Shown piece after piece: positions 10,904-13,535 of a stretch of 64,000 nucleotides of DNA. The notes under the pieces are model-generated. The model made no database searches and was not told the origin of the DNA. It saw nothing but the letters and a program-made list of their open reading frames with translations. Numbering within the stretch: the first letter of the stretch is position 1; each line of letters starts with the position of its first letter. The stretch covers positions 62,001-126,000 of the forward strand of contig NZ_BONC01000010.1 of assembly GCF_016862515.1 (NCBI RefSeq), written 5' to 3'. Both the position numbers and the translations under genes were made by a program. The stretch is from Asanoa iriomotensis (GTDB lineage: Bacteria; Actinomycetota; Actinomycetes; Mycobacteriales; Micromonosporaceae).

Positions 10904-11200
10904 CGAACGGATCGCACGGCGACACGGCTCCTGGCGACACCCCAGCACGAACGGGAGGCTGACGCGTTCGCGGCGGAGTTCCTTACCCCGCGCGACAGCA
11001 TCCTGCCTGCGCTGCCCGGCCGGGCAGAACTGCGCCGGTTGGCCGAGCTGCAAAAGGTCTGGGGTGTGTCGGTGGACTCACTCCTGTACCGATGCCGGGA
11101 GGTGGGGCTGTTGTCGGAGCAGGCCGCAGGCCGTGCGTGGCGGCGGCTGGAGCTTGTCACACCGACGTCCGGTGCTCCGGCTGGTTCCCTAGCCGGCTAG
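10904..11200 (+). pseudogene. Remnant of an ImmA/IrrE-family metallopeptidase (C-terminal part only)
   Basis: The frame is open from the stop at 10901-10903 to TAG 11198-11200 and encodes 'HEREADAFAAEFLTPRDSIL', 'RRLAELQKVWGVSVDSLLYR' and 'GLLSEQAAGRAWRR'. This is the typical C-terminal half of ImmA/IrrE (Peptidase_M78) proteins, in which the HEXXH zinc motif lies just upstream of this block. No HEXXH and no good start codon are present; the 5' part has been replaced by sequence after the permease stop. It therefore looks like a truncated, non-functional leftover of a regulatory protease, often found with an XRE repressor on mobile elements. This remnant fills most of the 310-bp interval between the flanking genes. 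Confidence 0.72.
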
Positions 11201-11673
11201 CGACCCGCCAGCGGGAGGACCGAATCCGGGAGGCGGCCCGTTGGGCGGTAGACCACGCACATGATGACGCGGTCGCCGTCCGCCCAGGTCTCGGCTGTTG
11301 GCAGGACCGGGTAGAAGTCGAGGCCCTCGGCCGACGGGCCGCGCCACAGTTTGTCGAATGCCTGGCCGCAGCGGTCCCAGCCGAACGCCGCGACGGTCGG
11401 GCGGTCGAAGGTGCCCTCGGCCGCGTGCACGAAACCGTACGACTGGTTGTCGGCGCCCTCCGTGCACGGCACGTAGACGACCACCTTGTCGTTGGCCATC
11501 CGGTCGTACTCCGGGTCGTCGAAGCACTCGGTGGCCTCGATGTTGAGCAGGCCGGTGGTCTCGGCGTCGAGGAAGGCGTCGGTCTTCTTCACCGGTGCGT
11601 CCGGCGGCGTGGCGAACAGCGTTCCGAGTGCCAGCGCCGTGGCCGCCACTCCGACCCAGCGGATAACAGGCAC
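11197..11673 (-). CDS. Secreted or membrane-anchored Septum_form-family protein
   Basis: A 158-residue protein with an N-terminal hydrophobic segment ('VIRWVGVAATALALGTLF') acting as signal or anchor. A Cys-containing extracytoplasmic domain follows, resembling the 'Septum formation' family (PF13845): 'ECFDD', 'VVYVPCTEGADNQSYGFV', 'DRCGQAFDKLW', 'ADGDRVIMCVVYRP'. Four Cys residues probably form two disulfides outside the cell. The family occurs widely in actinobacteria and its exact role is unsettled. The start is GTG. Its stop interleaves with that of the metallopeptidase remnant on the same CTAG. Confidence 0.7.
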   Translation of the reverse strand: MPVIRWVGVAATALALGTLFATPPDAPVKKTDAFLDAETTGLLNIEATECFDDPEYDRMANDKVVVYVPCTEGADNQSYGFVHAAEGTFDRPTVAAFGWDRCGQAFDKLWRGPSAEGLDFYPVLPTAETWADGDRVIMCVVYRPTGRLPDSVLPLAGR

Positions 11674-11745
11674 CCGGGGACCGTAGGCGGCCGCGCTGGC
11701 TGCCGGGCCAACGCCGGATGTCGGTCCGGCTGCGCTCGGATGGCC

Positions 11746-11778
11746 GCCTGTCAGCGGTCTTTCAGCTGTTCTTCAGTT
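11746..11778 (+). promoter_or_regulatory. Pho-box-like array of three 11-bp direct repeats
   Basis: Three contiguous 11-mers occur: GCCTGTCAGCG, GTCTTTCAGCT and GTTCTTCAGTT. The second and third share a TTCAGYT core at exact 11-bp phasing. Tandem 11-bp units are the architecture of PhoP boxes in actinobacteria. The array lies 87 bp before the start of a secreted phosphatase gene, the expected target under phosphate limitation. The match is to architecture rather than to the full streptomycete GTTCACC consensus, so it is a prediction. Confidence 0.55.
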
Positions 11779-11864
11779 CATCCGTAGGAAACGTCGAGGT
11801 GCGGTGGCCGTTGATCGGCTTTGGCTGAATGCGCGTGTCGCAAATCCCTGAGGAGGGACCAAAG

Positions 11865-13535
11865 TTGAGTGAGGTCAAGAGGCCTTTCCACGCCGGCCGT
11901 CGTCGCGCGGCGATCGCGGCGATCGGTGCCGCGGCGCTGTTCGCCGGTGGTGTCGCGTTCGGCCCGGCCGCGTTCGGTGACGCCGCGCCTACCAAGTTCC
12001 CGGCTGCCGAGTACTACAAGCCGACCCCGGTGCCGGACCGGGTCATCCTGATCCCGACCGACCAGCCCGCCACCAGCCAGCGCGTCTCGTGGCGCGCCGA
12101 GGCGTCCGCCGAGTGGGCGCAGGCGCAGATCCTCGAGGCGCCCAAGGCCCTCGGCGACGTCGCGCCGGCCGCCGGCGCGGTGCGCACCGTCAAGGCGTTC
12201 GCCAACACCCCGGTCAACACCTCGCTGGGGTACGCCTCGACGTACCACTCGGTGGAGTTCACCGAGCTCAAGCCTGAGACGCGGTACACGTACCGGGTCG
12301 GCGACGGCACCAACTGGAGCGAGTGGATCGACTTCACCACCGCCGCCGAGGGCTTCTCGCCGTTCTCGTTCATCTACTACGGCGACGCGCAGAACTACAT
12401 CGACAGCGCCGTGCCGCGGGTGTTCCGCCAGGCGTTCGCCGACCGGCCGCAGGCCAAGGTGATCGTCAACGCCGGTGACCTCATCGACTCCGCGAACAGC
12501 GAGGAGCAGTGGGGCCAGTGGTACAAGGCCGGCAGCTTCATCGACGGCCAGATCAACAACATCTCGGTGACCGGCAACCACGAGTACAGCGGCACCAGCC
12601 TGTCGTCGTTCTGGGCGCCGCAGTTCCCGTACCCGGACAACGGGCCGGCCTGGGGTGACGAGCCGGCGCTGAAGTCGACGTCGTACTCGGTCGACTACCA
12701 GGGTGTGCGGTTCATCGGGCTGAACACCAACGTCCAGAGCATCCCGCAGTACATGGACGCGCAGACCGCGTGGCTCGAGGGCCTGCTCAAGGACAACCCG
12801 AACAAGTGGACCGTGGTGACCTTCCACCACCCCGTCTACTCGACCGCCGAGGGCCGCAACAACCCGATCGTCCGGGCGCAGTGGGGTCCGCTGTTCGAGA
12901 AGTACGGCGTGGACCTGGTGCTCCAGGGCCACGACCACACCTACGGCCGGGGCAGCACCACCGCCTCCAAGAAGTCGGCGACCGTGCACAACAGCACCGT
13001 TTACGCGGTGTCGGTGTCCGGCGGCAAGATGTACGACGTCGACGGTTCCGTGTGGACCGACAACGGCGCCGACATCATGGCGAAGACCGAGGACTCGCAG
13101 CTCTACCAGATGATCGACGTCAAGGCGGACTCGCTGGTCTACGAGGCCCGCTACGCCAACGGCAAGCACTTCGACGGCGTCGTCGTGCGCAAGAACGACG
13201 CGGGCGAGCGGACCGTCAACGAGTGGCGCACGCCCGAGACCACCACGGGTGAGCACGTCATCGTCAACACGACCACGCCGAAGGTGGGCAGCAAGCTGGC
13301 CGTCACCGCCTACGGGTACGACCCGAGCGAGTCGGTCGACATCTACCTGCGCAAGACCAGCACCGCCGAGGGCAAGCCCGGCATCCTGATCGCCACCAAG
13401 AAGGCCGACGAGCTGGGCCGGTTGGACTACACGTTCACCCTGCCGGGCAGCGCGGCCGGCGGCAGCACCCACACGGTGTACCTGGAGAGCCGCACCCAGC
13501 AGATCTACAGCCCGCTGATCACCGTCAAGAAGTAA
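11865..13535 (+). CDS. Secreted purple-acid-phosphatase-like metallophosphoesterase
   Basis: A 556-residue exported enzyme. The signal region ends near 'FAGGVAFGPAAFGDA'. An N-terminal FN3-like purple acid phosphatase domain (about 45-165) includes 'YHSVEFTELKPETRYTYRVG'. A calcineurin-like domain (about 170-420) shows metal ligands in 'YYGDAQ', 'NAGDLID', 'TGNHEY', 'TFHHPVY' and 'QGHDHTYGR'. A C-terminal Ig-like domain follows. The start is TTG 11865, since AGGAGGG sits about 7 bases before it; ATG 11829 lacks a site. It should hydrolyse phosphomonoesters outside the cell. A Pho-box-like repeat upstream and a strong hairpin just after the stop support an independent phosphate-regulated unit. 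Confidence 0.9.
   Translation: MSEVKRPFHAGRRRAAIAAIGAAALFAGGVAFGPAAFGDAAPTKFPAAEYYKPTPVPDRVILIPTDQPATSQRVSWRAEASAEWAQAQILEAPKALGDVAPAAGAVRTVKAFANTPVNTSLGYASTYHSVEFTELKPETRYTYRVGDGTNWSEWIDFTTAAEGFSPFSFIYYGDAQNYIDSAVPRVFRQAFADRPQAKVIVNAGDLIDSANSEEQWGQWYKAGSFIDGQINNISVTGNHEYSGTSLSSFWAPQFPYPDNGPAWGDEPALKSTSYSVDYQGVRFIGLNTNVQSIPQYMDAQTAWLEGLLKDNPNKWTVVTFHHPVYSTAEGRNNPIVRAQWGPLFEKYGVDLVLQGHDHTYGRGSTTASKKSATVHNSTVYAVSVSGGKMYDVDGSVWTDNGADIMAKTEDSQLYQMIDVKADSLVYEARYANGKHFDGVVVRKNDAGERTVNEWRTPETTTGEHVIVNTTTPKVGSKLAVTAYGYDPSESVDIYLRKTSTAEGKPGILIATKKADELGRLDYTFTLPGSAAGGSTHTVYLESRTQQIYSPLITVKK

Follow-up and report, generated by a model that had tools for sequence, protein, structure and literature searches.

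The closest described relatives of the element analysed here are the PHO boxes of Streptomyces, and their description is taken from excerpts of the papers cited. In Streptomyces coelicolor they are built from 11-nt units with the core GTTCACC, in operators that range from simple to complex (PMC4415409), the PhoP unit being GTTCACC plus 4 nt (PMC6988585). Weaker ancillary units, which are filled at higher PhoP levels, may flank the core units, and PhoP units overlap the -35 element at glpQ1 and glpQ2 (PMC7866108). Half a Pho box accompanied by TCA repeats lies upstream of a Streptomyces gene suggested to be PhoP dependent (PMC7244524). For mycobacterial RegX3 the published site reads GT/GTCAcc-n4 (PMC7884335), and for a regulator of phosphate genes in Microlunatus it reads GTTCACnnnnnGTTCaC (PMC6754071). 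The literature searched on Pho boxes together with Actinoplanes, on purple acid phosphatase together with PhoP, and on TTCAG or TTTCAG repeats yielded nothing specific to the element described below; TTTCAG in the matching excerpts was part of a primer in one case and of a single MprA site in the other.

The element lies in the window, by which we mean the whole stretch of 64,000 nucleotides of Asanoa iriomotensis DNA that was analysed, part of a genome of 8.57 Mb. It precedes a gene for a predicted secreted purple acid phosphatase (11865..13535, + strand; Pfam PF16656 and PF00149, supported by orthologues), which starts translation at TTG 11865 behind a ribosome-binding-site-like GAGGAGG (11850-11856, + strand). 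At 91-92% identity the protein matches its counterparts in Asanoa ishikariensis and A. siamensis, and the gene is carried by five of six Asanoa genomes, the sixth (G002) having distant homologues only. The initial annotation had described three tandem 11-mers at 11746-11778, 87 bp before a purple-acid-phosphatase-like gene, and had suggested that, with a core nearer to TTCAGCT-N4-TTCAGTT than to the streptomycete GTTCACC, they may be a lineage-specific Pho box. The repeats are real and in exact 11-bp phase, with TCAG at 11751, 11762 and 11773; the distance from 11778 to the TTG is as described, and the Pfam matches agree with the naming of the gene. The annotation overlooked GTTCATC at 11776-11782, a motif that begins inside the reported feature and runs beyond it. 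The idea of a PhoP-type 11-bp array before a secreted phosphatase survives as a prediction and that of TTCAG as its core does not. The reported feature exists, but it is centred beside what is predicted to be an ordinary PhoP/RegX3-type operator. The region is likely to be both operator and promoter for a gene of the phosphate-starvation response, with a predicted PhoP/RegX3-type activator array.

Pho boxes and regulator of the genome

The pattern GTTCAYC-N4-GTTCAYC with up to two mismatches occurs 174 times in the genome, against 24 times for the reversed control. Twelve dyads are near-perfect (one exact, 11 with one mismatch), and five of these adjoin phosphate genes, namely DUF47-PHO4 (pit)/PPK2, pstS, two other purple acid phosphatases and a VTC-domain gene. 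None of the genes that contain or flank the remaining seven was recognised as a phosphate gene; at least three of these dyads fall within reading frames. No strong dyad was detected near four of five PBP_like_2, five of six PhoD and 17 of 19 other metallophosphatase places. The phoU-phoR intergenic region contains GTTCACC and GTTCACT 22 bp apart, and phoU is divergent there from the genes for a PhoR-like kinase and a RegX3-like regulator. The best match of this phoU-linked regulator is RegX3 (PDB 2oqr, E 4e-108), and the C-terminal DNA-binding regions of the two are almost identical; the protein is the predicted RegX3 orthologue and, by position and box, the predicted counterpart of Streptomyces PhoP. 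Among the features by which PHO boxes are recognised, 11-nt tandem units, a GTTCACC-like core, a box at core Pho genes and a regulator beside phoU are found in the genome sequence.

Layout of the phosphatase promoter

Orthologues from 29 Micromonosporaceae loci (seven genera) were aligned ungapped on GTTCAYC and, 46 bp downstream of it, on the block TGGNTGAATGC; both motifs served as anchors, and the columns between +7 and +45 did not. GTTCAYC, on which the anchor had been chosen, is exact in 25 of the 29 and has one mismatch in four. Genus-weighted conservation peaks at TTCA (+1 to +4), G..A (+12 to +15), GTCG (+23 to +26) and GTCG (+34 to +37), with G conserved at +11/+12, and its autocorrelation at lag 11 is significant (p = 0.0019; taking the best of 15 lags, 5-19, gives 0.024). 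On the + strand of the window, unit 1 is GTTCATC (11776..11782), the strongest PHO direct-repeat unit, and unit 2 is GGAAACG (11787..11793; family form GGNCANN), in which column +15 is A with a genus-weighted frequency of 1.0. Units 3 and 4 are GGTGCGG (11798..11804) and CGTTGAT (11809..11815), both of the family form NGTCGNN and both recognised from column conservation and held-out loci. The last three units are weak in the window: a matrix built from only 12 units gives the dyad 9.0 bits and the first unit by itself 12.3, the second being degenerate. A score as high as that of the GTTCATC unit is reached at 66 of 667,562 positions when the same matrix is run over fetched DNA of the genome itself.

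The downstream anchor corresponds in the window to the conserved block TGGCTGAATGC (11822..11832, + strand), which stands at +46 from GTTCAYC in the 29 Micromonosporaceae loci. It includes TGAATG (11826-11831), which begins 10 bp past the fourth unit and which we infer to be the -10 region of the phosphatase promoter; as a sigma-70 -10 element it is poor. The exact layout GTTCAYC-N39-TGGNTGAATGC is found in the genome at this promoter alone, the next best matches having two mismatches. Other readings of the promoter and leader were rejected. The +46 block is not an inverted PhoP unit, because TCAATGC variants break the TTCA core while AATG stays, and a leader peptide from the ATG in the block would vary in frame and length among relatives (by eye). 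A stable 5' hairpin was not significant (z-scores -0.71 in the window and -0.84 in a relative). The leader of the window (11833-11850) lacks an inverted-repeat stretch of ~20-30 bp (CCACCG...CGGTGG type) that follows the AATGC block and precedes the ribosome-binding site in the other four Asanoa orthologues.

The layout was also examined in a held-out test on six loci from other families, none of which had been used to define it. The pattern [GT][TC]C[AG] was present at +12, +23 and +34 in two, three and three of the six, and 33 other offsets in these loci gave a mean of 0.15 and at most one. In five Jiangella loci the corresponding counts were two, zero and zero, there were no +23/+34 units, and the downstream block stood 57 bp from GTTCAYC instead of 46. 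The Streptomyces odonnellii homologue (L026) is without the element. Additions upstream of the array differ by genus when compared by eye, GATCATGA at -8 being seen in several. In most of one genus (upstream regions of L177, L179, L181 and L182) the main pair is preceded, at a distance of 21 bp, by another GTTCAYC/GGYCAGG-type pair that looks like a tandem duplication of the operator.

A divergent gene for a small protein (11197..11673, - strand) is the syntenic partner of the phosphatase gene, with a tblastn match in 40 of 40 loci and only sub-threshold Pfam matches (Septum_form). Its -10-like TACGGT (11680..11685, - strand) lies 7 bp upstream of the GTG start, so the transcript is probably leaderless. 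The divergent promoter follows the rule GTTCAYC-N10-TANNNT, spotted by eye and then measured, in 16 of the 40 loci with up to one mismatch in the unit and in 12 with a perfect unit; other spacers of 5-20 give zero or one, the other strand at most two, and shuffles a mean of 0.07. The spacing of 10 bp is the same as that between the fourth unit and TGAATG of the phosphatase promoter. The window's own divergent promoter has no GTTCAYC-N10 unit, which has been lost there. The 40-locus counts exclude L198 (unanchored), the G214 match (no locus), L025 (truncated) and L026, as well as L001-L010, L012, L022 and L024, which belong to Asanoa, Phytohabitans, Plantactinospora and other Micromonosporaceae and were left out as represented in the family set, the overlap not having been compared one by one.

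We propose that the phoU-linked regulator most likely binds head to tail on the four 11-bp units that start at 11776, 11787, 11798 and 11809. With 10 bp between the end of the last unit and TGAATG, the bound regulator would stand in for a -35 element and bring in RNA polymerase when phosphate is short; such a spacing resembles PhoB-type activation in place of the -35 element.

The TCAG repeats of Asanoa

The three 11-mers read from the window, GCCTGTCAGCG (11746-11756), GTCTTTCAGCT (11757-11767) and GTTCTTCAGTT (11768-11778), form an array on the + strand (11746..11778) that is limited to Asanoa. Their matrix registers are -27, -16 and -5 relative to GTTCATC, that is, about half a turn off its register, and the G of the third TCAG is the first base of GTTCATC. 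Allowing one mismatch, the triple occurs twice in the window, compared with a mean of 0.18 in shuffles, of which one in 100 reaches two; across the genome there are three exact occurrences, and 17 within one mismatch against three for the reversed-pattern control. The triple is uncommon, yet not unique in the genome. A better sign of function than rarity may be the invariance of its CAG bases, all nine of which are unchanged in the five Asanoa orthologues, where 30 of 76 upstream intergenic columns are invariant. In the same five-genome alignment the 27-bp array, with the consensus CAG..G.CT.TCAG..G..YT.CAG, has 16 invariant columns, and sampled 27-bp stretches of upstream intergenic DNA have 6-14. 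The five-genome consensus with up to two mismatches matched the five Asanoa loci and no further locus in 354 family genomes; the pattern having been built from those five loci, only the absence elsewhere is informative.

The initial annotation had also suggested a scan of the genome for the 11-mer pair near phosphate genes. Exact TTCAG-N6-TTCAG occurs at two sites in the genome, the reported promoter, which is the only one near a phosphate gene, and the intergenic region between a response-regulator gene and DedA. The genome scan found the exact pair at none of the located pst, phoU, PhoD and other metallophosphatase genes. At the second site (L104:4420-7194, - strand), genes for a kinase, an OmpR-family response regulator and DedA stand in a row, and TTTCAG-N5-TTTCAG in the short gap before DedA is a candidate operator of the neighbouring response regulator. 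An exact TCAG triple on the opposite strand is found directly upstream of the gene for a BTAD/AfsR-like regulator (L127:1400-3021).

We favour reading the triple as weak ancillary PhoP units specific to the genus, and by a matrix derived from other genes' boxes its members rank second to fourth among the offsets of the Asanoa promoters. The frequency of such a score speaks for chance: the sum-score of the triple is reached 20 times in 667,562 positions of the genome, about once per 33 kb of strand, so the triple alone is not decisive. That the TCAG repeats are chance or neutral features of a GC-rich promoter, in which only GTTCATC and the downstream units matter, would also fit their absence outside Asanoa; we nevertheless think it unlikely, given nine invariant CAG bases in five genomes against that background of columns. 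That TTCAG replaced GTTCACC as the core of a Pho box in this lineage is highly improbable. Its phase, position and target gene would suit such a box, as would the conservation of the triple in every Asanoa orthologue, but GTTCAYC is retained both at this promoter and at the phosphate genes of the genome, and the TCAG triple is confined to Asanoa. The genome scans contradict TTCAG as a genome-wide Pho box, with the exact pair missing from the phosphate genes located elsewhere and no other site among the family genomes.

The triple could also be the operator of another OmpR-fold regulator, either an OmpR-family response regulator or one of AfsR/SARP type, that competes with PhoP in Asanoa, which we regard as possible though not probable. 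The repeats are phased at 11 bp and yet about half a turn off, and since they share a base with GTTCATC, both sites cannot be filled together. The sole other exact TTCAG pair lies between OmpR-family response-regulator and DedA genes, and the BTAD/AfsR-like gene is directly preceded by one of the two other exact triples; with two TCAG-type sites beside genes for OmpR-fold regulators, a competing regulator stays conceivable, and competition of PhoP and AfsR at overlapping boxes is documented for Streptomyces in an excerpt of PMC6988585. Against it, a pair of neighbouring sites is no more than anecdote, and a PhoP-derived matrix scores the triple above background; nor did the literature searched on TTCAG and TTTCAG repeats give a motif of such a regulator. 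A more elaborate and doubtful form of the idea is a switch between two mutually exclusive registers. Asanoa would have added to the ancestral PhoP array a second operator, 11-bp phased, about half a turn off and with a base in common, from which PhoP in the alternative register, or another OmpR-fold regulator, would block or tune the activation of the phosphatase by phosphate starvation. The case illustrates that a genus-specific ancillary repeat can be mistaken for the core of a known box.

Comparison with known systems

On sequence evidence, PhoP/RegX3-type control would extend in several actinobacterial families to a divergent gene pair, that of a secreted purple acid phosphatase and its small partner, with an explicit promoter layout of one GTTCAYC unit, three degenerate units, 10 bp and then the -10 element. 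If the TCAG triple is the site of a second OmpR-fold regulator, its overlap with the PHO array would recall the AfsR/SARP-PHO overlaps at phosphate promoters (excerpt of PMC6988585), TCAG being at most a putative AfsR site. With the pho box of E. coli PhoB, given as CTGTCAT in an excerpt of PMC4415409, the element shares 11-nt tandem units, and its first two 11-mers contain CTGTCAG and CTTTCAG, but across genera it is GTTCAYC, and not CTGTCAT, that is conserved. The element resembles the mycobacterial SenX3-RegX3 regulon in that the phoU-linked regulator has its closest match in RegX3, whose site has been published as GT/GTCAcc-n4 (excerpt of PMC7884335), and differs from it in its target, a divergent pair of purple acid phosphatase and small-protein genes, and in belonging to an actinomycete of another family. 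The Streptomyces PHO box is matched in its 11-nt units, its GTTCAYC core, its combination of a strong core unit with less conserved neighbours and its placement before secreted phosphatase, pst and pit genes. Unlike the strong dyad of Streptomyces, the promoter described here combines one strong unit with three degenerate ones (G..A, GTCG and GTCG) and carries, in Asanoa only, an extra TCAG array in another register.
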